Of a stretch of 64,000 nucleotides of DNA, positions 8,290-64,000 are shown one piece after another (position 1 is the first letter of the stretch; each line of letters starts with the position of its first letter). The position numbers and the translations under genes are program-made. The notes below the pieces were generated by a model. That model saw only the letters and a program-made list of their open reading frames with translations. It made no database searches and was not told the origin of the DNA. The stretch comes from Rugalucina vietnamica (taxonomy: Eukaryota; Mollusca; Bivalvia; Lucinida; Lucinidae): contig OZ024880.1 of NCBI GenBank assembly GCA_964017185.1, forward strand, positions 42,064,329 through 42,128,328, in the 5' to 3' direction.

Positions 8290-8524
8290 GGGCCTGGACG
8301 CTAGCTCGAAATTAAGCGTTAGACTCTGTCTCCATATGCAGTGGATGACACAGGTTTTCTATGACACAGAACCTGCTGAAGCAAATTATTTTCGGTCTCT
8401 GTAAGTATGCAGTGGGTGGTTTACTGTATACTAGTATATTACTGCCATCAACCAAAGTGCCAGTAATATTTCTCCGGTCTAACAAAACAGCGATTAGCTA
8501 AGGTAAAGTGTATATTCATTTAGG

Positions 8525-8735
8525 TACTTATACCAAGAAAACATATCGTAAGCCGAGTGAGCAGCTATTCCCCAATAGGCGGCCACTCAGTTACCCGAAC
8601 TGAAATAAAATATGAAAACGTACATAAGGCTCAAACAGCACAAAAATTCGACCCCAAAACACAAAACAATTAGAACCACAACAGAAGTATCGCATTCGAA
8701 CGATCGGTAATATAAAATTACTGGGGATCACTTAA
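8525..8735 (-). mobile_element. Naiad 3'-tail fragment
   Basis: Reverse complement of the tail sequence of the downstream Naiad element: GGTACTTATACC, TAAGCCGAGTGAGCAGCTAT, GGCCACTCAGTTACC and AGAAGTATCGCATT occur in order. It is one of five minus-strand tails in the receptor gene. Confidence 0.65.
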
Positions 8736-15200: not shown

Positions 15201-18200
15201 GAATGACCTCCCTGATTCACTTGTCTCCTCTGCTGAAATGTCTGATGACTGTGTGTCCAAGTTCGCTTCACTCGTGCGTTCAAGGGACTAATTTCCCCCC
15301 CATCCGAACCCCCTGGTGAAATAATGTCATTTGGCGTGTCACCAGTAAACTATTCAGATTCAGATTCAGGCAACATACAGGTACAATAAGAAAAGATGGT
15401 AAACCTTAAAATGCACATACAAAAGAAATTGTCATCACTGAAACGAAAAACAGACTAACCACAGAGGAAGTATCGCCTTGGAACTGTCAGTAATAAAGTA
15501 TTGGGGGTTTAAATTGTTTCAGGGCTTTCAAGCTTTGCCCTCAGCATCTGAATTTGTTCAAATGTACACAGAAAATTGACACAAATATATATGAAATAAT
15601 GGTTGGTTGGTTAATTTTGTGTTTTGTCCCACTAAACAGCTAAGGTAATATGGCGATAGGAAATTAGTTTAAGTCTTGTACGAAAAACTGGAGAAGCCTG
15701 GAATTGACCCCTGGTTTACAAGGCAAGCAGCTTTCCCACTACACCACTAGGCTTCTATACATACTTGAAATAAATCTTGATATAGTAGATAAATACCAAG
15801 CACTTACATATAGCAAGCATTATGGAGAGCAGGGTACAAAAGACATGATTTAATACAAACCATTTTTATTTGTATGAACTACTCAATTAGCAGAAACAGT
15901 AATTTCTATTGAAGCAACACACATTGTTGAACAGAAAGAGAAAATCATATCTTATTCCTTAGGTTTTAGACATTTTAGTCATTTCGGCCCAAAACATATC
16001 GGCCAAGGACGCCTGGGTCCACCCCTTTTCACAGCGTTTTAGCAGAATTGTAAAAAACATACCCTTTTTCCACAAAAACGACATTTTGCCTACCCTAAAT
16101 GATGTCAGCGCTGCGCACTGCCCTTCTTGAAAAAAAGTACCCTTTCTCATCGTTTTTTTGATCACGCATCGGTACACTGTTTACCAGGGATTGCCCCCCC
16201 CCCGGGATTTAAAGGGTAACTGAAGAGGCTTAAATAGCCGAAACCGCGGTATGGCCCATCTCTTTTCTCATTAATATGCTGCTCTTAAAGGATCTCAGTT
16301 TTATTTTTATTTGCTATTACTGCAGCTGGTGTTTGCGTGTGGCGGCCCTAAAAAGTCTCCACGTACATCATCCATAGTGCAGATTATATTTTCCTTTTGG
16401 TCCTTTGAAATCAGCTAGGGTATTCTGAGAAATCAGAAATCAGAAATATATTCTCCTTTTGGTCCTTTGAGATCATTGAGGGAATGAAATTCATTATCGG
16501 TTTAGATTCATTTTGTAACCAACGTTTTGTATATTTGACTCTGTTTGGATAATACAAGTCTTTGTACCGACTATCCGGTTGATCCGGCTAAATTACATCT
16601 CTCTGGCTCCATTTTGCCAAATTTAAAGGGTCACTGAAGAGGCTTAAGAAGCCGAAACCGCGGTATGGTCCATCTCTTTTCTCATTAATATGCTTCTCTT
16701 AAAGGATCTCAGTTTTATTTTTATTTAACAATTAGATGTTTACGTGGGGTTTTCAGGCTCTTAAAATAAATCATTTGAAAATCTGTTGCAGCAACACGTT
16801 TGTTTTTACTTTTGCATATACTGGAACATATTTTATTACATGTTTAGATTTCAGTGGTATACATGTTTCTTATTTCTCCTTCAAAACAAATAATTGAGCC
16901 GCGTCATGAGAAAACCAGCAATGTGGTTTCCCAACAGGTCCGACACAAACAGAGGTGTACAAGCACAGAAGATCGCTAGAGACTAGAAATTATGGGTTTA
17001 GAAAGTAGAGGAATTGTACTATCCGTGTAGCGAAAACAAAAGCGCTGATTAGCTTCGCAATTACTGCGAAGCTGATCTGCCTTTGGTTTTGCATATGAAA
17101 ATTGTTGGTTTTCCCATGATACGGCTCTTTTTTTTTGTACTCTTACTTGTAGCCACGATCTATGTTTTGTGCAAAAAATAAGAAAAATGTTCAAAACATT
17201 AAATGAAAATTCATTGTATTTTTTCACACCTGATAATATTGTTTGTTGCATAGGCTTGTTTTCGTAGGTATACCTCTGGCATGTGATAGTGACAACGGAT
17301 GGCAGTCTTTAAATGGACAGTGTTACAAGGTCTACACAGCTAAGGCCAGCTGGTATAACGCCAAGTAAGCAAGATACACTTTTATATATCTTGACAATTT
17401 TCATCCGTATATCATATATAGCTTTCAAGTTAATGTCAATCTTGTTTCAGTTTTTCTCCCAGACATTCGTACAGAGTCTTCCAAATACTACACTAGTTTT
17501 TGCGTTTTCCTCTATTGCTAACCAAAAGGCGACATAGCTTCAAACGATTCATCTTAAAGCTGTGTACATATTATGCTTACATATATTTTTTCTGGTTTCT
17601 GTATTAACAAACTGTGTTGGTTTCCAGGCAACGATGTGAACGTGATGGCGGTGGCATGGTTACCATAGATACACAGAATACCGAAATGTTTATGCATGAC
17701 TTTGCTATATCCTATAAACAACAGCTTTGGATTGGACTGTATACGGTGTTGGTAAGAAAACCTAGGTCAAGCAGATTAATACTAAAAACAAACAAACAAA
17801 CAAACCAAAAAAAAAAAAAAATAGGCTATTTTTTCTTACATTTTTTTTTTATAAAACGGGACAGTTACAGTTGGACTATCACAGCACAACCAAAGTAGCT
17901 CGAATGATATACTACAAACCCCAAACTCAAATCTAAATTCGCGTATTTCTATTACTATTCCAACAAACTGTTCGCAAGCGAATTGTTTACATGTCTGTGG
18001 TAGTGGTGGATACTTTGTATGACAAAATGATGCCCATATTTTATCAAGGATGCTGTTCAGGTACTGTAAATGAAAAGATGCTGGATTATGTTTCAAAATT
18101 ATTTATTTATTTATTGTTGCTATTGTTTCCTTTGTTTTCCAGCAACCTGGTAATTTTGTTAAGTGGAACTGGACTGATGGTATAGATCACTTCACTAACT

Positions 18201-21200: not shown

Positions 21201-24200
21201 CCGCGCACCAGCACACATTTCCAAATACTCAGATTTGGTCATATTTTATGTTCGCGCTTGATGAACAATGATTTGTTAAGATTTGCCGAGTGAAAATAAC
21301 TTCTTTTTTTCATAACTCAACTGATACATTTGAATTTAACCATACCGACAAAATAAGAAACGCAATGGTTCCAAGGTGCACGGAAACATATTCTATCCAT
21401 CTTTTATCCTCATTGTTGTTCAAACATGGGCTCTAAAGGATTGACAGCTCTTCTAACATTTAACCGCATCTTGAATAAAAACATACACGTGGTCGGGTGG
21501 GAATGTGGGCCCCTGCCCATTGGGGCCTAGCAGAAATAGATTGGCTGCTTGTGCCTCCAGGCAAAGCTTCTAATCTACTGACCGACCATCTGATTACTGG
21601 ATAACCGCTTATGTCTGAGCCTGCCCTGGAAATGTGGTATAGTCAAACCACCCATACTTATAAACCTTATTGGCTTAGTTCGGTGCATGGTTATAATTAT
21701 GAAGCACATCTTGAGTGTCATGACATCCTAATGTTGGGTAAAAGTCCCATGAAATGGAGGCAACGTCCCGACATGACCATTGCTGTTAACAGGGACGTAA
21801 AGCATCAACTCAAACAAACAAACAAACAAAAACAAACATGCATACTGGAGATAAAAGCTTATAAACCATGAAAAGCTTTAAGCATAATATGAAGTGTAAC
21901 GATCATGGTCGATCAAATTAGAGATTTTATAGACGAAAACTTTTGAATCATCACATCCATACGTACGCTCAATATGAAATTCACGAACGAAAATAGATTT
22001 GAATTTCTGGACAAAACTGTTTTTCTTAAAATGAAAAAGTAACTTCAGCATCATAGACGCTCGTTTGCACACACTCACACACAAACACACACGTGAGAAA
22101 TTTTGTAAGTTCAGCATTTCTCAAAAAAAACAAAAAAAAAAAAAAACAAAAAAAAAAAACAAAAAAAAAAAAAACAAAAAAAAAAAAATGCATTGAGTTT
22201 ACATGTATCTGTGTCTCTTACAGGTCTCGTATTTCTTTTTCTACATCCGGCATCCAGGGTTTTATCAATAAGTTAACAAATAAAATTATTCGGTGGGCAT
22301 TGTTCATGTAAATGGGATATGATGTGTCTGTCAGCAGCAGAAAGTCGGTAAATTTGCTATTACCCTGGGCGTCTGTCAATAGCAAATTTACGGATTTTTT
22401 GCTGCTGACAGACGTCTGGTAATAGCACATTTACCGAATATTTGCTATTGACAGACGTCTGGTAATAGCACATTTACCGAATATTTGCTATTGACAGACG
22501 TCTGTCAATAGACACTCCGAAAAAAAAAAAGGATTCCCACGCTTTTAGTACGCTTCTAGTACGCTTCGACTACGTTCTCGCTGCGCTAGCGACGTTCTTG
22601 TCGCGCTACTACAGCGCTTCTACGGCGCTTTAGGAATCCCCAAGCCGCATCAGCTACGCTTCCACGACGTCGAGGGATTTCTGTCTACGCTTTGCCTACG
22701 CTTACTACGTTCCTGCTGCGTCCTTTCTACGTTTGGAGCTCAGACACTGCGTTTCTGTTGCGTTTTGTCCATGAAAACTCAACAAGTTAAGATCTTTTTC
22801 ATCATTGGACAAATAGTCTTCAAAGAAGATGCAGCGTATGGTGCCAGTATGGTTCAATTGTCGGAGGCTGGATGGCAGTACTAGTAGCGTTTGCATTTCT
22901 TCCCTTTCGAGATGGCATTTTCTTTGATGTGGATTGCTTAAATTAACATTTAACAATGAAGACAATGCTAAAACATGTGACCCTGGTTGGCACGTGCGTG
23001 CTGTAAATCACAATGAACGTAGCTCAAACGCCAAGAGCGTAGTAGAAGCGTAGTGGTAACGCAGTCAAGACGCCAAGAGCGTAGTGGAAGCGTAGTGGTA
23101 ACGTAGTCAAAACGCCAAGAACGTACTGGAAGCGTAGAAGAAGCGCGTTGGTTGATATTGGTAATTTGGTGGAATCGTAGTGAAAGCGTGAGAAGCGTGG
23201 CAAGGACGTACATAGCGTAGAGGGAGCGTACTGGGATCGCGGACAAATATCGCTACGCTTTTACTGCGATGCTGCTACGCTTCTTCTACGTTATGCACGC
23301 TACGGCTACGATACTGCTACGCTAATGCCGTTCTTACTACGCTTTTACTACGCTTCCACTGCGTTTCGAGTCCACGGCGTTTTCTCTACGTTTAAGTTTT
23401 AAATTTTTGAGCAGGGTCAAAACTTTCAAATTTGGGTGGCGTTCAAGGCGCTACCAGTACGTTTCTACTACGATCAAGGCGTTTCGACTACGCTTCTGGC
23501 GCTCTCTCTACGTTTCACGGTATTTTATGCCCATATTTGGAAACGTAGTGGAAACGCCGCCCAGTGGAATGGGGGTATTACATATAATATCGATTTCCAC
23601 AAAATCATGAGGATACTTTTCTTACACTTAAACAATTTCTTTCTGATTGCGCCTTTTCCTGATCATTGCCTATTTGTACCCTTTTGATATGTTTTAACTT
23701 AGGAACATGTTTTCCCGGCTGGGTAGGCCATCAGACATGGTGCTATCAGTTTAATGTTCAATACCGACTCTCATTCACTGCAGCCAACAAATATTGTACG
23801 GACCAAGGCTCGGAGATGCTCAGATACGCCCGGTAAGATTATCAATAAAGCATATCTATCCCGAGGTAGGTGTGCAGTCTTACGGAATTGGACTAGGGGT
23901 CGAACCTAGCTTCTATAAGTGAACCGACGCACAACAAAGCTAACAGTGTCTTGTAAGTACGCATCAGAGAACCAGGATTTGACAGTTTTGCATTTGTTAT
24001 AAAAAACGTATATCCAAATGATGTGGAACTAGTCTTGAATATACGAGCATATGTTTTAAAAAGCGACAAAGTAAATTCAAGTTTAACTCATTCTGAATAT
24101 TGTTTTTAATTCAGTTTTACGTCCCTTTCAAGATCATTTCAGCTCATATGAGACGGGCCAATCAGTAGGTGGGGCGAAAACGGGAGAACCCCGAGAAAAA

Positions 24201-27200: not shown

Positions 27201-30200
27201 AATTTTCACGTATAGTTTGTTGTGCGGAAAGCAAAGTATTAAATATGCAAACTTTCGGTTATTGTGTAATTGCTTCCAATCAAGTCGTAATAGATGTTAT
27301 TCGCAGTAACTGATGAGCGCCTTTGTTTTCGCTACACGGATAGTACAGTTCCCCTACTTTCTATATCCAAAATTCCAGCCTCTAGCCATCTTCTGCAACT
27401 ACACAGGCCGCTTTGTGTCGGACCTGGTCGGAAACCCCGAAGCCCGTTTTCTCGCGTCGCGGCTCATTTTATATGCCTTAAAATACCAGATATGGCGAAG
27501 AGTGGTGTCCAATACTGGCTTGGTTTGAACGACAGGGCAACGGAAGGTATCTATGTATGGAACGATGATACAGTGGCGGTAAGTTAAACATGTATCGGAT
27601 AGGAGCCACCTCGATAATAAATCAGCATTTTTATACTCTGGTTCAGCCTGATGCGTAACATGCTGTAAAACCAACACAAAGTCTGCTTCAGAATAAATAA
27701 AATGGTGAATCCTCTTTTGAAGGAAAAAGACAAGGATCAACCGCACGTGTCTGCTTTTCCGCTTGCGTAAAAACTCTTCAGGGTGCCTTGATCTTGGACC
27801 GTGCCACATCTGTGGCTATACTGTTTAGTGTTTGTATAGAAGTACATGTAACATTCCACAAAAAGACGCCAGACTTAAGTGGATTTACATGTATGTGGCT
27901 TTGATTACAAATAATTTTAGGTTAGGATTACCTCTTCATATATTATTTCCAGGATATTCATTTATTTGGAATGTCGTCAACACCATGTATTTTCTTTTAA
28001 TTATGATCCAAAGAAGAGTGTTCAGAGTACCTAACAAATCTATTAACACATCATCTATTACCTTCAATACCTCTGTTTACAGGCTACTTACTTAGCATGG
28101 GCTCCCCATCAACCCAACAACTACCACAATGTAGAAAACTGTGTGGCTCTTGACAAGCGCCAGTGGCGTGACCTACCCTGTGACTTTCAGAAGTCATTTA
28201 TCTGCTCGAAAGATCCGAGTGAGTACCTAGTTTAGACCAACATGTAGCTAAAAGCTTGATGTTGTTGCAGACCTATTATTAAAAGGTACAAGTAGGCAAC
28301 GATCTATTTTTGGTTTGGTCCCATCTATAAAAGGAACTGTCATGTTGGTCTGATTTTGACAGGTTCATTCTTGTTTTGTATGTGTGAGCAAGCGAATGAA
28401 ATAATTATGTTGTTATTTGCCTTACGGAAAATTTCAAGATGGTTTTGCATTCATTAAAACCGCTAGATGTCTGTTGATCTCAGATACGAATTTATGAAAT
28501 TAAAGTTATATGATACGGTTGCAAGATCACATAAAATGAAATAACTATAGACGGATGACAAAAGTTGATAGTGACGATAGAAGCTCTGAAGAGCATTCGA
28601 GTGTAAGGCCTTTGGATTTCTTCAAAAGGTACAAGTAGGCAATGATCAAGAAAAATGTGCAATCAAAAAAAAATTCCCACTCCAAAACCCGAAGTGGGAA
28701 AATCGAAATTGACAATTAGATACTTGTAATAAAAACATATTGTAAGCCGAGTGAGCAGCTATTTCCCAATAGGCGGCCACTCAATTTCCTGAACTTAATT
28801 AAAATCTGAAAAAGCACATAAGGTGCAAACAGCACAAACATTTAACACCAATACATAAAACAATAAGAACCACAACAGAAGTATCGCATTGGTATAAGAA
28901 TGTATTTGTAAGTTTGCAGATATCTGTTTTCCATTGGACCTTCGTACATGTAGTTCAGTGAGGCGTAAGGTTGTGCATGCATCTGTTTCATCCATTTTAC
29001 TTTATTTGTTCCAGATACTATTTTACCGCCACTTTCAACTACACCAGCGAGTATGTACTTTACATCCAACTTCTACACGTTAAGCTATATGGCTATTTAC
29101 CGTCAACTCCGGCTAGCTTTAACAATACCAATGGACTATTTTAAGGCAATATTTTTATCCAAAACTGTTTAACTGGCAATCTACAATAATTAATATTGGG
29201 AACTGTTTTAGGAAATATCAATCTGAAATTAGCATCAATGAGAAATGATGGCATTCAAAACATCTCAGTTTCTTTTACATGCGATCGAGAATCTGACTTA
29301 TTACGCTCATAAGTGACACTTGAACCTTTATAATAAGGGAGTATGTCTTTCTTCAAGCAAATAGTATAATGTACAGATGTCTATGCTGGTTTTAGGCTTT
29401 TGTTTCACGTGCGTGTTTCACAGGTTTTATCTTAAAAAGATGCAAGTAGGCAAAGATCAGGAAAAGGCGCAATCAGAAAAAGATTCCCACTCCAAAAACC
29501 GAGGTGGGAAAAAACCAAACTAACAATCTGGTACTTATACCATGAAAACGTTTCGTAAGCCGAATGAGCAACTATTTTCCCAGTAGGTGGCCACTCAGTT
29601 ACCTTAACTAAAAATATGAAAACATACATAAGGCGCCAACAGCACAAAAATAGTTTAAACACCAAGAAATAAAACAAAAAGAACAAAAACAAAAAGAACC
29701 ACCACAGCAGAAGTATCGACTTGGAACGATCAGCAACACAAAGTTGTCTCATTTTCAGCTGACTGGACAGTGAAGTGTGGACTGGGGTGGCAAAGTAACC
29801 CTGTCACACCCAACTGTTATATGTTTGTGGACCAGCCCCTGTCATGGCTAGATGCCCTAAATCAGTGTAAACAATATGGCGGCGATCTGGTTGCTATAGA
29901 AACATTGGAAGAGCAAAACTATCTCGCAGGTGAGTTGATGTACTCAAATATACATACCCAGTTATGTTTTGCCCATTATTATTTTTATTTCAGTTTTACG
30001 TCTCTTTCAAGATTATTTCAGCTCACATGAGACGGGCCAATCAGTAGGTGGGCGAAAACAGGAGAACCCCGAGAAAAAACACCTGGCACACCTGCAAGCA
30101 GAACTTGGCATTATTAATGGTCATTCATGAATTGCGAAGGATTTTTGTGTTTCCTTGATGTTCTGCAATTGGACTAAATATGGGAGGTGTACTCACTTCC

Positions 30201-33200
30201 TGATACAGCGATGCATAACCTTGAAAATCCAATTATAAGTATTTTCATAAAGCATCTTCACTCATGTTTATAAAACCTACCAAAGCAAAAGCTTCATTGG
30301 TTTTATTATGAGTACATTATGGCAATAATTTCTGCTTATCATCCCAAACTTCGCAGCAACTTTGTTATTAGCCTCATAAAAGGAAACGCTGCTTCTTTTG
30401 TAGACACGACTCAAGCAATATTTTGTAACTGCTTTGGGTATATTTTGGCTGCTGCCTTTATATTTCCAGCTACACTACAAACGATGAATTCTATAGCTAT
30501 GTGGATAGGGCTGAATGACCGGGGGACAGAGGAACTCTGGCGCTGGTCTTCAGACAAACCGTACGCCTACCTTAATTGGGCGGCAGGTATAGATAACGAA
30601 AGCACGCCCATGGAATGTATAGAATTGTTTCAGCTCTGTAAATATAGATAGATCGTGGGTACATGTTAGAACCGCCAAAATTTATGTTAAATATAGTACA
30701 AACAATAGAAAATGATCACGTTATCCTGGTGTGCAGTCACTGTGGCCACATCATTCTGGGAATGATACACTTCATTCTGACTTTTCGCATTAAAACAATA
30801 TCCCAACCAAGATTTCCCATTACGGAAATATGTAATTTTAAAATCATATGCCTAATGATTTTTTTTCTTACTTTAATTTAGGAACTACAATCTGATATTA
30901 ATTAGACATTAAAGTAAAGACTTTGACCGTGCTGGTTTACCCCGAGTGATGAAGTTTTGTTATACATTTTGTTACGAATGTACTTACTTGTTAAACATTT
31001 CTTTGTTACGAAAATACTTGCTTATTAGACATTTTCTTTGAAATACTTGCTTATTAGACATTTTCTAGTGTCATTTGAAGCATGTGGAAATCTTGCTTAC
31101 CATAATAGAAAGTGTGATTAATTAAAACTTAATGATTGTGTTTGAATACTTCCGATGATCGTTTCTTCTGTACAGGGCAGCCTGGTCGCAATGGTGAGGG
31201 GACTGATTGTGTAGCAATGTATACCAGTACTGCACAGTGGGACGATTTAGAATGTCAACAGAGAAATGGATATATCTGCGAAAAATTAGGTAGATTTTCA
31301 TCATGATGTAAATTCTAATGTGTGATGCATATACGTTCGGCAAAGAACAGAGGGCTTTCAAAGGTTAACAGAAATATGTTTGTCTCAATGAGTCTTGAAT
31401 GTTTCAATCAAACACAATCGCAGTAAGCAGTATAAGGGTTCCCACGGGCTCTGGAAAACGTGGAAAATGGCTGAAAAATGCAATGCATGGAAAAGTCATG
31501 GGATTTAAAAAATGATGAAACATCATGCCAAAATCCCGGAACTTTGTTATGAGATGCCTTTTTGGATGTCAGTGACACTCATTGTTTTCCTCGCTCGCTT
31601 CGCTCGCTCGACAAGTTGATAAATAAATTTCTGATTTTCAACAAGACATTTCAAATATTTTTTCTCCATCAGAAAACAAAATAATACATAGAAGCAAATT
31701 AATTTTGCAATATAATTATCTGTGTTTGCCTTTTATACAGTGTTATATGGCAAAAATGAATAAAAAACAGAAATAATAAACCTGGAAAGGCCTAGGGATT
31801 TAAGGATGTTCGCTGCTAACATTTGACATTTCGGAACTTCCGGTTTTTCTTTTGTTGAATATCTCGTAAACGGTTGCAAATATTTTCCTAATATTTTATA
31901 TTTGGATACATATTGATGATATGCATTGAATGAGCCATAAAAATTGTCAATCTAAGGAACTTCATTTTTTCACCCCATTTTCTGCAACTTTTCAGAATCT
32001 TTTAGTTGTCAGTTAAATTTAGGGGGTAGGGTAGATTAAACATGAATGTGACACATCTTCAAATTAATTGCACCAGTTCGATGTTTATTTTAGCAGCAGT
32101 ATATATGTACATGGTCTTCTAAGCCAGTTTTTCTGTCTTTGGTGTGCTAGTTTTAAAATTTTGGGTGGTTTTATGAAATAGGCTTCAAGAAACAAAACAG
32201 CCGAAAAACGGCTCAAAATGGCGATTTTCAAGTTGTTGGTTCTCTGTTATATGCACACTACCTTATAAATTTCATTCCTTTATTCGAATAATACTTCAAA
32301 GCTCTATGTTGTGTGAAAATACAAGAAAAAGTTTGAATCTACAAATATGGGTTTGGCACATTTCAAACTATTGATTTTTTCCGACTTTTCAAGTATGGGG
32401 GTAGGGTTGGAAAACGACTCGTAAAATTTTGTTATCCACTTCAAGATGCAAATTTTTCTATGCATTTGGTCCAGAACAGTCTTCATTACGTAAATATTAT
32501 GACTTTTGAAGGCAATCTAGGTGTATTTTTGTTCAAGACAGGTTTGTTTCAAAAAATAAAAAAATAAAATAATTTTACTAAATTTAAAACATGGTGTTCA
32601 GAAGTCTCATTCAGAGGCATGTAGCTTGAAAAAATGCACACTACCCTATACTTATTTTGTTTTCAAATGTCTTGTGTTGTATTTTGGAATCAAAAGAAAG
32701 TGGTTAGAAGAAAAGTTTGAATACTTTTTCATTGGCAGCGAACATCCTTAAGGTCTGATATCGGCCTCATGCGTTGGTAAAAATTGAATTTTGGAATTGC
32801 AAGGAAAAAAGTAGTGCAAATAGCAGGTATAGGTCCCTGCTTACAAAATCTAGCACAACTATCAAATTCAAATTGCACATGTTGCCATGGCAACGCTCCA
32901 AAAGGCATAGAAATGCCACTTTTTGCAATTTCGGGTCTATTTTTCACAATTTATTATCATTTTCAACTACCGGCCCACGAGACGAACAATTTCTTATTAT
33001 GAAATAATTATGAAATATCATCCAGAGATATTGTATGCAAAGTATCATTTTGCTCGTCGTGTGGGCCGGCACTTAAAAATTTTAAAACTGTGTTTAGAAA
33101 TGGTCAAAAATAGACCAAAACGTCCAACATGTGCTCTATGTGCTCTATGGTTCTTCTGCGCGTTGCCATGGCAACGCTATAGGATAAATGAAGTACTTGT

Positions 33201-36200: not shown

Positions 36201-39200
36201 TACGTATTAATGTTACTTTAATGTATTGCTATTTTTTCAATCGTGAACCTTTATTTTACTGATATTACCTATACCAACTGGCAGACTCAGGCACCCATTA
36301 ACCTACGGAACGAGGAGTGCGTTGAGGCTCGTATCAAGGGGCAGCAAAAATGTAATTTTTGTCTTTCTCTCATTTTTCTTATTTTTAAAAAGAAAAATTA
36401 TGTATATTGCAGGCAAAGGAGGACGACGTTTAATGAATTTTAAAAAAAAGTAACAACAATGATAGGGAACTGGTGCAGGAGGAGCGAAAGCCTCACTAAA
36501 AGTACACGTAGACAAACAAAATTTCAAACAGTATCTTCCATTTATATCTTATCTTTATAATAAAATATAATTGTTAGATACTTTGAAAGCAGTAAAACCA
36601 TTCAAAGAGAGGTGGGCCATATTGTACAATTTCGGGTAATGAACCTTCATCAGTGACCCTTTACAAAACTGGCAGCGAAAGCCAGACATTCATGATTGCT
36701 GCAATTTCAAGAATTTTCACCAGTATAGTCTAAGTCAAAGACTAGTATTCCCAAAGGGGCCAAAATATTCAAAATTCTGATAAGATGATGATTCTTAACG
36801 TACAATATATTTGAAATACTCCAAATATCTTCTTTGATCTCAAAGGATCAAAAGAAAAATATAATCTGCACTATGTATGATGTACGGGGAGACTTTTTAT
36901 GGCCGCCACACGGCACAACACCAGCTGCAGTAATAGCAAATAAAATATATAGAGGATATTTGCTTTTTTGAGGTGAATACCAAATATATTTCATCGAGTG
37001 AGTTGAAAACATCAGAATTTTCACGAGTGCGCAGCACGAGTGAAAATTATTATGTTTTCAACTCACGAGATGAAATATACTTGGTATTCACCGAAAAAAA
37101 AGCAAATTTTCTTTTTATTTTATACAATGCACAGGCATTTTCCAATGCACAAGGTAGGAGGTGAAAATGCAAAAACAAAAATTTTTTGAAAACACAAATA
37201 ATTTTGATACCACATTGTTCCTTATGTTCTAACTAAGAAAATGAATACCCACACTTTATGTTTTCGTTCATAAATAACGGAGTTATAGGCGTTTGAATTT
37301 CTGAAGTGAGACACATTTAATGACGTCAAGTAAATGGAAACGTCGGAAGTAATCCAAAAAATCTGACGTCATTACAGTGACGATATAGGCTGATATCAGT
37401 CACTAGTGACTTTTGATATCAGTGAGATTTGATATCAGTGAAATTTCATATCAATGAAAATACCAATTTTATCAAGTTTTGATGATACATTGGGTTTCAC
37501 TGAAAAGTATAAAATAAAATTGTAGATCCTTCGAAACTGAGCAGTAAAGGTGGGCCATATTGTACAATTTCGGGTAAAGAACCTTCATCAGTGACCCTTT
37601 ACAAAACTGGCAGCGAAAGCCAGACATTCATGATTGCTGCAATTTCAAGAATTTTCACCAGTATAGTCTAAGTCAAAGACTGATATTCCCAAAGGTGCCA
37701 AATATTCAAAATTCTGTTAAGATGATGATTCTTAACGTACAATATATTTGAAATACGCCAAATATCTTCACTGATCTCAAAAGATCAAAAGAAAAACATA
37801 ATCTGCACTATGGATGATGTACGGGGAGACTTTTTAGGGCCGCCACCGCACAACACCAGCTGCAGTAAATAAAATATAATTGTTAGATCCTTCGAAAGCA
37901 GTAAAACCATTCAAAGAGAGGTGGGCCATATTGTGCAATTTCGGGTAATGAACCTTCATCAGTGACCCTTTACAAAACTGGCAGCGAAAGCCAGACATTC
38001 ATGATTGCTGCAATTTCAAGAATTTTCACCAGTATGGTCTAAATCAAAGACTAATATTCCCAAAGGGGCCAAATATTCAAAATTCTGTTAAGATGATGAT
38101 TCTTAACGTACAATATATTTGAAATACTCCAAATATCTTCACTGATCTCAAAGGATCAAAAGAAAAATATAATCTGCACTATGGATGATGTACGGGGAGA
38201 CTTTTTAGGGTAGGATAGGAAAAATGTGTATAGGAAATGTCGTTTAGAAGAAAAGGGACTACACCTGTCCACTGAACGGATGATGCTCTTCATTCCCGAT
38301 GAAAGAGAACTTTGTTGACCCATGCCTATTCACCAAATGGTGTAATACAATAATTTCTGTTTCAGGACGGAACGTGGAACGACGAGGCATGCTCATCTGT
38401 AAGAGCCGGTTATATCTGTAAAGCTCCTAAAGAAGCGGTGTCAGCCACTCAGAATCCGTACCAAATAGGATGTCCATTGGTAAATGCATCTGTAGTTGTT
38501 TGTATGTGTAGAGCATTGTTAAATGATCATCCGTTTTTGTCTATACAGACCCTACCTTAAATCGCCCTTGTCAGTCGGACCCGGGATCGGACCAAAGTCA
38601 CCGTGTACGCATGTTAATCTGGATCTCTTCTCATCATATTAATCAAGGATTCACAATATAAGTGTATTTAAGCTAAAGCTGGTTTACAATGTATGACGAA
38701 TGATAAGCACGCGTTCAATAAAAGCCTATTTCTAGTTTCACTAAAACTCTGTCTGTTTCCAATTATTTATGACTAGACTCTACGGAATAATTTGCATAGT
38801 TTTGCAAAATGTATCTGACCTAAAATATATACATGCATATTTTATGTGCAAACATTGTGGTTTGTACACCTATTGTACCAAAGGTGGCTTTGAATGTGCT
38901 AAGATGTAATATAAAATGAGGAAGGCTAAAAATACCTATTTCGTATATTGTGTTTCGCAAAATGTATGTACATGTATCTGACCTAAAATATATACATGCA
39001 TTTTTATGTAGATGCAAACATTGTGGTTTGTACACCTATTGTACTAAAGGTGGGTGGCTTTGAATGTGCTAAAATGTAATATAAAACGAGGAAGGCTAAA
39101 AATACCTACTAGTTTCGTATCTTGTGTTTCGCAAAATGTATGTATCAGACCTAAATATATATACCTGCATTTTTATGTAGATGCAAACATTGTAGTTTGT

Positions 39201-41174
39201 ACACCTATTGTACCAAAGGTGGCGTTGAATGTGCTAAAAAGTCATATAAAACAAAGAAGGCTCAAAATACCTATTCCTAATATTGTGTTTCCAGTACTCA
39301 CTTGGCTATGGCCCGCTGTGTTACAAAATGTCTTGGAGGGCTGCAGTAAAATGGACTGATGCTAGAACTTCTTGTAACAAGACATACCATGGCAGTCTGG
39401 CTACTGTTAATGATAGGTGGGAATATTTTATGTAGACTTAATAATTTTAAATACCCATAATCTGCTTTCTCTATCATACCCGAATCAGATTAGTATGCTG
39501 GTGAAAAGCCAAATTGACATTAGCACACCAGAGAGATGGAGCTTGACCGGATGGGATAAAGGAATAGAAGAAATACAATGTACATATCATTTAGAAACTT
39601 TACCTGGCATCCCTGGTCCACAAAAGCCCATACATGTACAATCACAACATATGGAGTCTTTCTATGAGAAACCGAATATGTCCTTTTGTGTCTCCTTGCA
39701 ATACCTAGGACGTATATTTCGCAGCATTTATAACAGTTCCTGTTCATGAGATACTGGAATTGGGACAATAATTGTGGAACTTTTTTCATACCCAAGTATA
39801 ATGATTGACCTAAGGTTAGCGGAGTTTCTAGTATGCTGTCTCAAACTAAACCATAGCATTACCCCATTAGTTCGGCAAAAGTTATCCACACAAGTGGAAG
39901 TTAGCGGGTTTTTTTTTCGCAGGTACATCCAGGCATTCCTGTCGAGTCAATTGCTGTACAGGACGGGGTATTTCTGGCTAGGTCTATCAGACACTGCTAA
40001 GACCGGGACTTACGCCTGGGATAGTGGGGATAATGTGATGTTTACGTACTGGCATAACACACATACCGGTAAGATAGAGTCGACTATTAATATGATCTAA
40101 GTATTCAACAGCAGGTCGTTATACAGAAAGCTTATGAAATGTAAATGTAGGCAATGATCAGGAAATGACGCAATCAGAAAGAAATTCCCACTCCAAAAAC
40201 CCGAGATTGGAAAAAAACTAAATTAAAAATCAGGTACTTATACTGAGAAAACATATCTTAAGCCGAGTGAGGAGCTTACCCAAACTTAGCTAAAATATGA
40301 AAACGTACATAATGTTTTCTAACAACACAAAGATTCAACACCAAGAACCACCACAGAAGTATCGCCTTAGAACGATCAGTAATGTAAAATACCTGGCGGG
40401 CTTATACTATTTTAGTAAAATAATTTTACAGGACTAACCTCACCCTCAGCTATGGTTCACAACATTTAGTTAGTTGTTCGGTCTTCGTGGTTAATCTCTA
40501 ACTCATCTATGAATCATCAAGGACAAACACATAAATCATGATAACGTCCAAGTTGAATCGAAAACGAGGACTCACAGATTCAAGAAATCAACTTTTCATG
40601 AGCCGGCCTGCTATTATTGATGGGTTTCGAAACAGGCCTGTATGGTACTTCTGGTTTATATAAACAAACCGATTTTAAAATAATATTTTATTTTATCACC
40701 ACAGGCAACGAAAAGTCAACGTGTGTTGCGATGCGAGCCGATCAACCTATTGGTCTGTGGGAGAATCTTAACTGTACCCAGAAGGGCAACTACATCTGTC
40801 AGTTTCCACGGACCGGAGGGTTCTCCACCGTACCCACAACTCCGACCCCCTACCCAAATGTCCCCTGTCCGTTCGGGTGGTTTGCTGTACAAGGAAACTG
40901 TTACTATGTACGTTAGCAATAATTGGAAAACTTTATTGGGCAAAGGTTTATAGTACCATTTCTTCTTGCTGGCTTCCGTTACTCTTGAATTTATCTCAAA
41001 TAGTGCTGGCAAAGGACCAAAACAAATGCACAATGATATACCAACGGAAGGGTCAGGGAAAGCCACAATAAAATGATAAAATACCATAGCCTATCCCAAG
41101 TACATTGTACCCGGAGAAAGAGGGGACAACTTTGGACAAAAAGGTGCATGTACATTATGAACACTATGGTAGAA

Positions 41175-41219
<45 letters not shown>

Positions 41220-44200
41220 GAGAAAATTCTCCCACCAGAACACAGCAAACAACAGAAAAGGCAACGCGATATGACATACTAATACCAAATCCAAATAACA
41301 TCTACTTAGATAACACAAATCCTTTAAGAATTACAGACCTTTAATTGTTTATGCCTAGGCATTTTCTCAGAAGACGGACATGCGAACTTGGATGGACGCT
41401 GCTGCACACTGCAAAAACCTAGGAGGCGACTTGCCCAGTTTCCATAATACACTGAACGACTCTTTCATCAACAGTTTTGTCAAGTATGTCAGTTCCATGT
41501 GAAATTGAAACTAATTGTTTATTATATATTGCTTTGGTGCTGTTAATTTTAAAGCATGGAGTAGTGACACTTCCAGAGGAAGAAACAAATAAAACAACCC
41601 TTATTCCATAAAATGGCCCATATCTCTACAAGGAAAAATGCATTGAAAACATTTTACGAAGGGGATACTTAAATGCCTTTTGTTTAGAAATGACCCCTTT
41701 CCAGATTTATTCTCTAGCTTAGACACACAATACACAGAAACTATCTGTAATTATTTCATGGTTACTGTATTACTTAATTTTCCAGTGCCAAAGAAGGGGC
41801 CCGGCAGACATTTTGGATAGGGATCAACGACAGAGATAATGAGAATGGTAGCATTTAGTTTGACTACCAAACCAATTTTATATCAGTATAGGGTTTTCGG
41901 GAGGTTTTGTTTTTTTTAAATGTAATTTACTGACCATCGAACGTCTTACATTCTGAGCATTTACTGCATAGATAATAATACTACTACTACTAATAATAAT
42001 AATGGTATTTTAAATCACCGTTTGATCACTGTATTTTCTCACTTGGATTACTGTACATACTAACTAACACATTCGTCTTTTAGATCTACATGTACTCACT
42101 TCTCATAAAATGTTCGTTCGAGGGCTACATTTTGTCTTTGATTGTATCAGTCACTGGTCACTAAACCCTTTACTATTGTTATGATTTAAGGCTATGTTTG
42201 GAGCGATGGAAGTGCCGTAGATTATACAAACTGGCTTAAGGGAGAACCTAACAACGCCTACGGGAGCGAGGACTGCACCTTATACTTAACTGACAGGCAG
42301 GGTTGGAACGATATGAATTGCTATGCTACATATAACTACATTTGTGCCATTCCAAGAGGTAGTGTTACAATTGTTACAAGTGAGAAAACCAACAATTTGG
42401 GTTCTGGTCAGGTCTGACACGAACCGGCCTGTACTGTCACAGAAGCAGTCTAGAAACTCAAAGTTTCAGATTTCAGAAGAAGAAGGATTGTAATATCCGT
42501 GCAGCGAAACCAAAGGCGCTGATCAGCTTCGCAGTATGTAGATTAAACAAACTGGAGGAAATGGGTGGGGCAAGTAAAAGCTAATGTATGGACCCAGACC
42601 CCAATTAATTTTACTATATAGTTTAATCATTTGTTATGCCTCCTACCTTTCTTACTGACATTTCTGGCTTTGTTTTGAAGCTTTTCTGCAAGCTAGCAGG
42701 GCATGCCAGATGTTTTAATCAAGTTTAAAGTATATCGTGACCTGCTCGTTTTCAAGCTATTTTAACTTTAAAGACACCCATTATTTCGTTTATTTTGACG
42801 AGATATTGCAATTATACATTGAAGGGAGCTCTTACAATAACAACGATGCTGTTTGATGCTTGGTTAAACGTATCATAGTCTTGGAGCTATTCAAAAAGTC
42901 AACCGACCCCCTACTTCAATAAGTCCAAAATAAGACAAATTTGCCTCTCTACATGGTAAAGATACAGCCACTGAATTAATTCAAAGCATTGGCGCATCAC
43001 CAATTCTGGTATCGTTTTGTTAAGTACTATGACAGGAAAGGTTAGATAAGGCAATTCAGTGACCTTGACCTTTGACCCTTGACCTTTATGATAGTCACAA
43101 TTCTACACTTAAAATTGGATTTTTGCACCAAAATTACCTATTCTTCACAAAATAACGGGTAAAAGCTGTGACCTTGACCTTCAATTTGTCTGTTTTGTAT
43201 ATTGTTCTTTTCATTTTAACATTATGATGCACTATCATGGTGAGTTTAACATTATTACACCAGAGAACGAGAAAAACTTGAAAATCATTAATGATTACAT
43301 TATACATTATAGGGGTCATAACTGCACCTTGTTGACTACTCAGAGGTGTTTGGAACCACTACTGATGCAATGGGTGAGGTTTGGTCCAGTAGATTTCGTT
43401 AAAGCACCCAAGTCATTTCTTAGATAACAGTTCCAGTGCTGTTCTGTTGTGAAAAATCTTTATGTTGTCTGTTTATTGATCTGTTTGTATGTGCATTTTT
43501 ATGTGAATTTTTCTATTTTAAAATTCGAGGATGGCCAGTTTCTGTCTGTTCCGCCTTGGGCTTCAGATGTGAAATCATGAAGAGATACAAAGGGGGTATT
43601 GGTTCCTGAAAACACACTTTCATTTCAGTGTCGAAACAGGGAGCACGCCTGAAGGTGATATTCTCTTTAGGGCAGAGACCTCTAATTATCGTTCCCATAG
43701 ACTCCCATTGTAATTTGTCCCAAAACAATACTCATTCTTAGGCTTCACAGCTTATAGTGGACCCCGACACATTCAGCAGACGAGAGATCGCCCCAGGCCG
43801 TGTACAAGTGCAGCAAAAAATAGGGCGTTAGCCAGCATTCAAGGACGGTACTTTTCGCTGTTTAGGGACACCCCAAAATCGCTCAACAATGAAAAAATAA
43901 TTATTCAAAAATAACTACATCCGCAATTTGGCCATAGCATGGCGAAACAGCAGCCGATTAAATAGAAATATATAGCAAAATATTCAAGAACGACCATACT
44001 ATCATGTGACAAAAGACATTTGATAGATACGCATTTATGACCAATGGTAGGTAGCGTTACATCTTAAATTTGCCGCGGTAGATCTGCCCACACTTCGGGC
44101 CATTCACAGGCAACGTTACATTTACTGGTCTCTGTCCTTTTCAAATAGGACTATTGGTCTGATGCTCGTGCGCCGTGTTTATTAGCACTAACATGAGGGA

Positions 44201-59580: not shown

Positions 59581-59763
59581 CCAACTCTAACTACCACAAC
59601 TCTTCGATACCGTATTGAAGGTCATTAGTTGACCGTCACTCGTATCTCGTTGTATAAGCGATTCTTACGTTTCTATCCATGGACTTGTATTAGACATGGA
59701 CCTGAGGTGTGGTTTTCGGTTATACCTTTTTCTTTCATTCGAAAGATTTTGCATTACGATTAA

Positions 59764-61654
59764 GTGCATTATTTATTCTATAACCGGTATGAGTGTCGCG
59801 CTCCTTTTGGCAGTATCAACACAATACTCCCAACTATGACTATCACAAAAATATTAGGAATTACATTAACTCCCCTTAGGTTGCATGCCGCGTCTACTGT
59901 ACGGATTCCTCATTCAACTAACAATTTTCAAAATTTATTACCTACTGTAAGGGTGACACCTCTTAATTTATTTTCGGCATCTACTGTTAATCTACACGGA
60001 GCTTCTAATTCTAATATGTTTCGTAATAATCTTCAGATTAGGTTATCTCCACTCAAATCACCAATTTTACGTAAATATATTAATCCGTTCAAGAGACCTG
60101 GAATGTACCCTAGTATTTCTAAGTGCAATGCCAAAAAGTGCAACTGTTGCAATCATTTATGCTCTAAGACTACTACCACTTCATCTGTGAATGGTAGGAC
60201 ATTTTCAGTGGTTAATGATTCTGATTTAGACTGAAAATCAATGGATCTTGTATATGTTCTTACTTGAAATAGTGTCAATGAAGGCCAAGACAAACTTCCT
60301 ACGATGTATTGGTTACCTAAGCTTCACAAAAGACCATACAAAGCTAGATTTATTGCAAATTCTAGCTCTTGTACTACCAATGAACTTTCTAAATTATTAA
60401 CTTCCTGTCTTACTGCTATCAAATCTCATGTTATAAGATACTGTGAGACAGTGTATGAAACTTCAAATAAAAATTGGCTTTTATCAATTAAAAATTCTGG
60501 TGAGGTGCTCAGTAAATTGAAGTGTAGAGGGTTCCGTGCGACAAGCTTGTCCACATATGATTTTTCTACTCTGTATACAACATTACCACATAATCTAATA
60601 AAAGAAAAACTTCTGGATTTGATAGAGTGGACCTTCAAAAGGGCATTAAAAAACTATGTTTCACTTTATTTGGCATGTAATGACAGAAGGGCTTTTTTCA
60701 CTTCCTCTGACCAAAGTCGGTATACACTTTGGTCATGTCAGAATGTATGCGACGCCTTATCCTATCTCCTTGATAATATTTATATTAGATTTGGAACCAA
60801 GTTATACAGACAAATTGTTGGAATTCCGATGGGTACAAATTGCGCACCTCTCGTAGCTGATTTATTTTTATACTGCTACGAAAGAGATTTCATGGATTCT
60901 CTTAACCATGATAATCAAGCTGATGTTATCGAGGCTTTTAATTCCACATATAGGGTACCTCGATGACCTTTTGAACATTGACAACCCTTATTTTGAAGGT
61001 ATGGTCAATCAAATTTATACACCTGAACTTCAGTTGAACAAAGCCAATATCACAGATACTGAAGCCCCCTTTTTAGATCTACATCTTTCTGTTGCAAATG
61101 GATTTGTTTCTTCTAAAATCTATGATAAGCGCGATGACTTTGATTTTGATATAGTAAATTTTCCTTTTTTGGATGGTGACGTTCCTCGTCGTGCTTCTTA
61201 TGGTGTATACATTTCGCAACTTATTAGGTTTGCTAGAGTCTGCAATCATGTTACAGACTTCAACGCTCGAAATAAATGTTTAACGGCAAAACTTCTCCAA
61301 CAGGGCTATCGGTATCATAAACTTCGAAAAACATTTTCTAAATTTTATCGTAGACACTATGAATTGATTTCCAAATATAATGTTGGGTTAAAGACGCCTT
61401 TAAGTGAGGGCCTTTCGGAACCTGAATTTTATGGTGACTTGGTTTACAAATTTAAGAAACTTCAAGGAATTAATGATTTTTCTTTTCAGTTCAGAAAAAT
61501 CATAACACGTTACAGACGTATAGGTTATAACTTGAATGTTATGCGACAGTCTGCATGCTTAGTTTTTAACCCAATCATGGTTGATAACTATGCTGCCTTC
61601 TTTAATTGCACGCCGGTGGGTCAGGCGTCAGACTCTATGATGGCCCCGACATAA
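59764..61654 (+). pseudogene. Naiad protein: Cys motif, GIY-YIG start, RT; in-frame TGA codons
   Basis: Frame 1 runs from 59764: basic N-terminus, KCNAKKCNCCNHLC, VNGRTFSVVNDSDLD, TGA (60232), KSMDLVYVLT, TGA (60265), then NSVNEGQDKLPTMYWLPKLHK of the RT fingers. In the family both TGA positions are cysteines of the nuclease start (C..S.d.VY.lxC), so they fit selenocysteine. About 250-300 residues, most of the nuclease, are missing between VYVLT and the RT. RT motifs: STYDFSTLYTTLP, GIPMGTNCAPLVADLFLYCYE and YLDDLLNI. One extra G near 60953-60955 shifts the frame just before YLDD. The last frame ends ...SDSMMAPT at 61654. This copy cannot be active. Confidence 0.8.
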
Positions 61655-61696
61655 AGCTATTCATTTTAGTTGGTTGGGGCCGGAGCTTCTTGTCTG
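61629..61696 (+). promoter_or_regulatory. Candidate SECIS element, first copy
   Basis: Helix I CAGAC 61629-61633 with GTCTG 61692-61696; quartet side ATGA 61637-61640 facing GGAG 61682-61685; helix II of ten pairs, 61641-61650 with 61673-61682 (TGGCCCCGAC with GTTGGGGCCG); unpaired AA at 61653-61654, 12 bases after ATGA; mini-helix AGCTA 61655-61659 with TAGTT 61667-61671, as in form-2 SECIS. The 3' side is GGAG rather than the usual KGAW. The AA is also the end of the TAA stop codon. A SECIS directs UGA recoding to selenocysteine. Confidence 0.65.
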
Positions 61697-61984
61697 TTGC
61701 TTGGCCCACCGGGGTCCAACTGGTGTTTTTCTTTTGCTCCGGAGTTAGTAGGTTATTCGGCGCCCAGGGATCTCCATCGTCGGGCAGCTTACTCAGTCTG
61801 TGAGTCCTGGTTTTTGATTCATCAGGATGTTTATCATGATTTATTTGTTTGTTCTTGATGATTCATTGACTAGTTAGAGATTCACCACGAGGACCGAATA
61901 ACTAACTAAATGTTATGAACCACTGCAGAAGCTGAGGGTGAGGTTATGGCCATGTAAAACCGGTTTAAGCCCGCCAGTAACTTT

Positions 61985-62395
61985 GTGTTACTGATCGTTC
62001 CAAGTCGATACTTCAATGGTGGTTCTTTTTGTTTTATGTCTTGGTGTATAAATTTTTTTTGTGCTGTTGGCGCCTTTTCTAAATTTTATCGTAGACACTA
62101 TGAATTGATTTCCAAATATAATGTTGGGTTAAAGACACTTTTAAATGAGGGCCTTTCGGAACCTGAATTTTATGGTGACTTGGTTTACAAATTAAAGAAA
62201 CTTAAAGGAATAAATGATTTTTCTCTTCAGTTCGGAAAAATCATAACACGTTACAGACGTATAGGTTATAACTTGAATGTTATGCGACAGTCTGCATGCT
62301 TAGTTTTTAACCCAATCATGGTTGATAACTATGCTGCCTTCTTTAATTGCACGCCGGTGGGTCGGGCGTCAGACTCTATGATGGCCCCGACTTAA
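61985..62395 (+). pseudogene. 5'-truncated second Naiad 3' end
   Basis: After GTGCTGTTGGCGCC of the first unit, coding sequence restarts abruptly at FSKFYRRHYELISKYNVGLK and reads to the same SDSMMAPT stop. It is a truncated tandem copy. The upstream [13 protein letters not shown] reading is first-unit 3' UTR, not protein. Confidence 0.75.
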
Positions 62396-62437
62396 AGCTA
62401 TTCATTTTAGTTGGTTGGGGCCGGAGCTTCTTGTCTG
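62370..62437 (+). promoter_or_regulatory. Candidate SECIS element, second copy
   Basis: Offset by exactly 741 bases from the first. All paired bases are kept; the only changes in the 68 bases lie near the apical AA (CATAAAG to CTTAAAG), with no effect on stems. Confidence 0.6.
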
Positions 62438-63216
62438 TTGCTTGGCCCACCGGGGTCCAACTGGCGTTTTTCTTTTGCTCCGGAGTTAGTAGGTTATTCG
62501 GCGCCCAGGGATCTCCATCGTCGGGCAGCTTACTCAATCTGTGAGTCCTGGTTTTTGATTCATCAGGATGTTTATCATGATTTATTTGTTTGTTCTTGAT
62601 GATTCATTTACTAGTTAGAGATTCACCACGAGGACCGAAGAACTAACTAAATGTTGTGAACCACTGCAGAAGCTGAGGGTGAGGTTAGGTACCTGTAAAA
62701 CCGGTTTAAGCCCGCCAGTAACTTTGTGTTACTGATCGTTCCAAGTCGATACTTCTGTAGTGGTTCTTTTTGTTTTATGTCTTGGTGTTTAAAATTTTTT
62801 GTGCTGTTGGCGCCTTATGTATGTTTTCATATTTTTAGTTAAGTTAAGGTAACTGAGTGGCCACCTATTGGGAAAATAGCTGCTCATTCGGCTTACGATA
62901 TGTTTCATGATATAAGTACCTGATTGTTAGTTTGGTTTTTTCCCACATCGGTTTTTGGAGTGGGAATCTTTTTCTGATTGCGCCTTTTCCTGATCTTTGC
63001 CTACTTGTACCTTTTTATGTATGTTTTCATATTTTTAGTAAAGTTGAGGTAACTGAGTGGCCACCTATTGGGAAAATAGCTGCTCATTCGGCTTACGATA
63101 TGTTTCATGGTATAAGTACCTGATTGTTAGTTTGGTTTTTTCCCACCTCGGTTTTTGGAGTGGGAATCTTTTTCTGATTGCACCTTTTCCTGATCTTTGC
63201 CTACTTGTACCTTTTT

Positions 63217-64000
63217 CTAATGCAGGCTCTACTCCAGCCAGGCGTGAATCTTTGCATGTAGAACGTATTATTTTAGCTGTCAAATCCTTGATGTAGTGAT
63301 TTTAGAGGAATACTCCGGAAAGACAAAATATGTCCTGTCTTTTTAAGACCATCAGCAATTTGCATATGGAGGAAAGGGGCTCTAGCATGATGTACGTTAA
63401 CACTTTTAAGTAAAATTGACCTTGATTACAAACAGTGCAGTGCACCATACCCAGACAATGAAAGTCGGATGCCACTGACAAGCATTACAGAAACCTATCG
63501 CCAAAGCGGCCAATACCACTTCCATTCTGCAATGGCAAATGTGCAACCCTACCTCATATAACACGAATTAATGTGAGGCCCAAAGTAGAATACTCTCCTA
63601 CCAGTACAGGTAAACACACAAAAACTGAACCAACAACATTAACTTGTTCCCAAATCCAACATCCACAAATATTACAAAACTAAGCCCAAAAGATTTTGTA
63701 CATAGTTACTAGAAGATGCAAGTCTTATCTTTAGCATCCACACCCACCCCTGTCTCTAATTGTAATCATAGGTAAAAGTTGACCTGTTACATTAGGTGAT
63801 TAACTTTAAATGATCAACCCAATAGATAAGAGAATGTCCAGTCGAATACAACATCAAAAGAAGTAAACATGGTAAAGTAGAGATTCGTTGACGGATTGAA
63901 ATGGTAGCGGAATATATTATATTGTGTTCTCAGGTATAATGCACATTTGTACTGGTTTGCTCTACAAGTCGGCTCTTACAGCCATGTAGTAGTGTTGGCT
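63217..64000. other. Intergenic, nothing recognised
   Basis: From CTAATGCAGGCTCTACTCC to the window end I see no frame over about 60 codons with a known motif, no inverted repeat and no repeat shared with the rest of the window. Confidence 0.5.

Follow-up and report, generated by a model that had tools for sequence, protein, structure and literature searches.

Candidate selenocysteine codons in a Naiad-type Penelope-like retrotransposon of Rugalucina vietnamica

A damaged Naiad-type copy and its tandem neighbours

The window (the whole 64,000-nucleotide stretch of DNA that was analysed) contains part of a Naiad-like Penelope retrotransposon with two in-frame TGA codons (60232-60234 and 60265-60267). 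The frame 59764-61116 is open if TGA is read as a residue. Between the first ATG (59836) and a frameshift at about 60945-60960 these two are the only TGAs of the window copy, and five more occur in its frame, all downstream of the frameshift. The features of the locus are listed below, with a full-length relative from the same genome (L012) as the reference.

59585-60271, + strand: 5' part of the window copy with leader, N-terminal region, Cys-rich motif (SKCNAKKCNCCNHLC) and GIY-YIG start; 98.98% identity to L012, element ORF nt -179 to 507
59836-59838, + strand: first in-frame ATG of the element ORF, codon 24 when counted from the frame start at 59764
60232-60234, + strand: TGA 1, candidate selenocysteine codon at the first Cys column before GIY-YIG; Cys in a Penelope-like element of the same genome with C-terminal GIY-YIG
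60265-60267, + strand: TGA 2, candidate selenocysteine codon at the second Cys column by the same comparison; U-x10-U corresponds to C-x10-C
60271-60272, + strand: junction at which about 1.4 kb has been deleted from within the element; the flanks match L012 ORF nt 507 and 1924
60272-61654, + strand: reverse transcriptase and C-terminal part, frame-shifted at about 60945-60960 by a net gain of one base
61629-61696, + strand: SECIS of the first copy, Rfam RF00031 (SECIS_1), 37.4 bits, gathering threshold 35
61652-61654, + strand: stop codon TAA of the element ORF, in the SECIS apical loop, placed by the frame and the L012 alignment
62075-63018, + strand: second copy, 5'-truncated, head to tail after the first; 97% identity to L012
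62370-62437, + strand: SECIS of the second copy, RF00031 (SECIS_1), 39.0 bits, gathering threshold 35
63015-63219, + strand: third fragment, of the element 3' end; 98% identity to L012

The 5' part of the window copy ends just behind the second TGA (60271), and the deletion removes the rest of GIY-YIG, the linker with a third TGA (UxC motif) and the start of the reverse transcriptase. Among the 46 matches listed (40 of 3,934 candidates scored), the junction was spanned by the window's own match only. Further downstream, the window copy shifts frame where intact copies read SRYLDDLL, and it has 1,385 bases there in comparison to 1,384 in most full matches. Thus, the window copy is dead, being both internally deleted and frame-shifted.

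The element is a Naiad-type Penelope-like element, predicted to encode a single protein of about 1,077 residues with an N-terminal GIY-YIG endonuclease, a CxC linker and a C-terminal reverse transcriptase. The GIY-YIG opening, at approximately ORF residues 118-225, was matched to a PF01541-found endonuclease of the same genome, and the reverse transcriptase, at residues 643-873, to that of Penelope-like elements; the endonuclease precedes the reverse transcriptase in the ORF, as in Naiad. The CxC linker motif and tandem copies with 5' truncation (pseudo-LTRs) are known Naiad features. The linker motif reads UDCKDSKYVYQPAGHIVTGNL in L012, where the CxC motif begins with the third TGA, and CDCKDSK in a sister sequence (L046). 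Tandem, 5'-truncated copies were found both in the window and at L012. A Pfam search of the element ORF detected no GIY-YIG or reverse transcriptase domain and yielded one sub-threshold match, to an unrelated family, while phmmer against the PDB returned one chain of an unrelated bacterial protein (E 0.078), which was taken as chance. The domain calls therefore rest on pairwise matches. A search for relatives in viral contigs produced three pattern stretches, none of which was confirmed.

Genomic copies and the cysteine columns

The genome was searched (1.09 Gb, 47 contigs), 29 stretches were fetched from it, and the first 20 of these were read for the frame. L012 has a frame of 1,101 codons with TGA at codons 3, 156, 167 and 460 (0-based); up to its terminal TAA, it contains neither TAA nor TAG. 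Its first ATG is at codon 24; the codon-3 TGA, for which the window copy has TTA, precedes this ATG, and the other three follow it. The two TGAs counted in a preliminary description of the locus are thus present, but the element has a third, which the window copy has lost with its deletion. In five of these 20 copies (L009, L012, L015, L017 and L018) the frame stays open across the three sites until the terminal stop; one of the five, L009, is 5'-truncated yet has all three sites. Most of the other copies among the first 20 are truncated before the sites.

The preliminary description had asked whether TGA is fixed across aligned copies and had regarded TGT or TGC in other copies, or scattered stops of all kinds, as speaking against selenocysteine. 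The fixation was borne out: in the 29 stretches, sites 1 and 2 were each TGA in 10/10 rows, representing 8 distinct places since two pairs overlap, and site 3 was TGA in 16/16 rows from 14 distinct places. Neither TGT nor TGC occurred at sites 1 and 2 among the copies whose letters were read there; at site 3, TGT was found in the sister L046. New stops in the fetched copies amounted to three TAA, one TAG and no TGA, all of them private, in 75,755 aligned bases (five rows below 95% identity left out, some stretches overlapping), so that no scatter of all stop kinds was seen. However, since the element copies diverge by only about 0.4%, the fixation of TGA among them is weak evidence when taken alone.

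A genome search with residues 151-508 extended these counts. Among the best 114 of 3,309 candidates, 113 matches had three TGAs and one had four; neither TAA nor TAG was present in any of these 114 scored matches, and none had fewer than three TGAs. These are counts without positions, and the identity of the three sites follows from the copies that were read; being a best-of list, it is biased to intact copies. The query sequence had Cys in place of each TGA, and an otherwise equal copy with a Cys codon would outscore a TGA copy.

The element family is young and high-copy, and its tandem places are about 4,228 bases apart in the genome searches and at L012. Older relatives of the element 3' end (72-90% identity) occur in the window at 29433-29745, 28624-28892, 40137-40578, 8522-8724 and 23634-23685, and the element lineage has therefore long been present in the genome. 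By extent, all of them begin downstream of the SECIS; no SECIS was detected at gathering level in older pseudo-LTR fragments across the whole window, nor up to E 10 in 39500-42500 and 28000-31500. Three further stretches of 34-41 bases (36879-36919, 37816-37854 and 16336-16369) match the stretch between the L012 tandem units at 93-98%.

The cysteine columns were identified from related endonucleases. The PF01541 search of the same genome scored 150 of 451 candidates, all but two listed without a stop, and the letters were read for 7 of the 150 listed matches (L039-L044 and one inside L045). Three of these, L041, L042 and L044, have long frames and are Penelope-like elements in which the endonuclease follows the reverse transcriptase; the reverse transcriptase of our element matched theirs with tblastn E values of 2e-8 to 5e-8. 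In L044, KCRRSNCGLCPYI and NTPMDCSVKNVVYMIQCRGC align to KCNAKKCNCCNHL and NDSDLDUKSMDLVYVLTU of the element with Cys at both candidate columns, and the one-against-one comparison of L044 NTPMDCSVKNVVYMIQC with NDSDLDUKSMDLVYVLTU gave an E value of 4e-7. Both TGAs of the window copy are thus placed, as had been claimed, at the Cys columns that open GIY-YIG. While the reverse transcriptases are related and the GIY-YIG opening of L044 is alignable, these three elements differ from ours in the position of the endonuclease and in having Cys rather than the candidate selenocysteine. Cys-type Penelope-like elements with C-terminal GIY-YIG hence coexist in this genome with the putative selenocysteine-type family. 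L045, considered as a Cys-type Naiad, was rejected because it represents the downstream part of an element that probably has its endonuclease at the C terminus.

At the third site, the comparison is provided by L046, which has 96% DNA identity to the element family and TGT at site 3, and this marks the site as one of Cys/Sec exchange. The 13 differences comprise 7 synonymous ones, 5 amino-acid changes and the Cys/Sec exchange itself; the synonymous share (7/13) compares with 21% expected without selection. With a generic Naiad linker as the query, 150 of 1,825 candidates were scored; two of these matches start at the first Cys, namely L046 (C1:77689349 region) and a second candidate Cys-type Naiad at C1:43064227.

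The SECIS, the stop codon and the host machinery

The SECIS-like hairpin noted earlier at the 3' end is an Rfam SECIS_1 match above threshold. What had been described as a single hairpin is present, but the window holds two, because the second, 5'-truncated copy follows the first head to tail. The fold consists of an AUGA core, a helix of ten or eleven pairs and an apical A-run, and is topped by a mini-helix; in the first SECIS the AUGA core lies at 61637-61640 and the apical AUAAA at 61651-61655. The folding energy of the first was -25.7 kcal/mol (z -3.4; 1/200 shuffles as good) and that of 62361-62451, which includes the second, was -40.1 kcal/mol (z -4.45). The exact SECIS opening was found in 20/20 stretches. 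In the whole genome, 16 SECIS_1 matches reached E ≤ 0.001, with 39.3-46.2 bits, among 150 scored of 42,234 candidates; at 37-39 bits, the SECIS of the element falls short of E 0.001 at this scale.

The first SECIS contains the stop codon, and it starts in the coding region and ends outside it. It does not, therefore, lie wholly in the 3' UTR, as it would in a eukaryotic selenoprotein gene. Such an overlap with the coding end is unusual and might hinder the SECIS. A stop codon UAA inside the SECIS apical loop is a feature that is not known to have been described. One RNA segment could in this way have two jobs, with terminating ribosomes opening the SECIS that the upstream UGAs need, which would amount to a built-in brake on transposition; we consider this unlikely, though if it were true, not only selenium but also translation itself would limit selenocysteine decoding and, with it, the output of endonuclease and reverse transcriptase.

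With respect to the host, the tRNA-Sec search gave two matches above the gathering threshold of 47 (79.0 and 71.2 bits) and 22 weaker ones below it, and control genomes also responded weakly in this search. The two loci above the threshold are C14:44653333-44653418 and C15:11181428-11181513; the first match was read as tRNA-Sec (tca) by ARAGORN. SepSecS (PF05889) gave no first-look candidates in an exon-by-exon search of the genome, the control being detected in three genomes. Short exons may be the cause of this miss, and since the exons were searched one by one, it is weak counter-evidence to the selenocysteine reading.

Selenocysteine and the alternative readings

Taken together, the sequence evidence makes selenocysteine coding the best reading of the TGAs, with a probability of about 0.94. 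What carries weight is the length over which the frame stays open, the placement of the sites at Cys columns, the SECIS and the sister with Cys, and the tRNA-Sec matches also support the reading put forward in the preliminary description. The UGAs lie at Cys columns with the frame open on both sides, and in the genomic sequence, and presumably in the transcript, the SECIS stands at the end of the same frame. An intron cannot well hide the TGAs, because the copies would arise by reverse transcription and they keep them. The element would thus very probably be a selenium-dependent jumping gene, and we are just as confident that it has three selenocysteines, two at the paired cysteines opening the endonuclease (U-x10-U) and one at the first Cys of the CxC motif (UxC). 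According to this model, the transcript would be translated and the host selenocysteine machinery bound to the SECIS would decode all three UGAs. Failure of decoding at the first UGA would leave a short N-terminal peptide without endonuclease or reverse transcriptase, and the activity of both enzymes, hence transposition, would depend on the selenium supply. The selenocysteines probably take over the function of the cysteines, be it in metal binding or in structure.

The TGAs could alternatively be ordinary nonsense mutations that a single dead master lineage happened to acquire and that were then spread by copying in trans. The window copy is indeed dead in other ways, and at about 0.4% divergence a shared defect would look fixed. 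However, a dead lineage does not account for three TGAs that follow the ATG in 1,101 codons without an internal TAA or TAG, that occupy Cys columns and that are accompanied by an above-threshold SECIS where this frame ends, nor for the at least 114 copies that keep the region. We regard this origin as highly improbable.

No more probable is that the UGAs are read through in another way, by a near-cognate tRNA or by regulated readthrough, with a graded ratio of short to full product and an incidental SECIS. UGA readthrough is known in viruses and some genes, and the unusual position of the SECIS over the stop codon would fit with its being incidental. However, three successive readthroughs would leave almost no full-length product, and Trp or Arg at the Cys columns would be expected to do harm. 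Moreover, apart from the two SECIS, no Rfam match in the 64 kb reaches gathering level.

Random decay, already thought unlikely in the preliminary description, is ruled out by the 1,101-codon frame together with the Cys columns. Random sequences of the same make-up (first-order) carried on average 24 TGA and 46 TAA or TAG codons per such frame, and the fewest TAA and TAG in 2,000 of them were 25, as against none internal in the element. The probability that three one-step mutations to TGA all hit Cys codons is about 0.01, from a tally of 31/139 candidate codons that counts the three sites themselves as Cys.

Comparison with known systems and further observations

Selenoprotein-coding Naiad Penelope-like elements reportedly occur in clams and spiders. 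This kind of element is already known, the clam and spider families preceding ours, and it is this kind to which the element would very probably belong. Among the titles listed in literature searches, none concerned selenoprotein retrotransposons. The published families likewise have an N-terminal GIY-YIG, a CxC linker and a C-terminal reverse transcriptase, several in-frame UGAs at Cys positions, and tandem copies at very high copy number; our element has three sites and a SECIS that spans the stop codon. Animal host selenoprotein genes share with it the UGA and a SECIS in which an AUGA core is combined with an apical A-run. In contrast to these genes, the element is mobile, would place three selenocysteines in one enzyme and has a SECIS that begins in the coding region.

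A retrotransposon in need of selenocysteine would tie its mobility to the selenium supply of the host, and the element suggests that selenocysteine can replace paired cysteines in a nuclease. The near-identical young copies, the sister with Cys at site 3 and the overlap of SECIS and stop codon make it possible to test directly the switch from Cys to selenocysteine and what it costs.

The presence of a twister ribozyme in the pseudo-LTR was considered but is not supported, as the candidates at 61962-62026 and 62703-62766 scored 23.3 and 20.2 bits against a gathering threshold of 67.2 (twister-P1). Three older relatives in the window have a readable twister core; one of them retains CCAAG, and the other two have CTAAG and CGAAT instead. 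Genome-wide, 20 twister-P1 matches were found at E ≤ 0.001 (62 scored of 67,343 candidates), none over the cut-off and none in the window, the best having 60.8 bits (C10:37891829-37891887).

Another, distinct GIY-YIG element is located at C15:425918-437860; its tandem units measure 3,893 bases, and its open frames have 964 codons. Searches for molluscan haemocyanin and for spidroin yielded no hits in the genome, but neither did they in any control, and they are therefore uninformative. In addition, C1q domains scored over the cut-off in 150/150 cases genome-wide (the best 150 of 516 candidates); a C1q expansion of such kind is known from bivalves.
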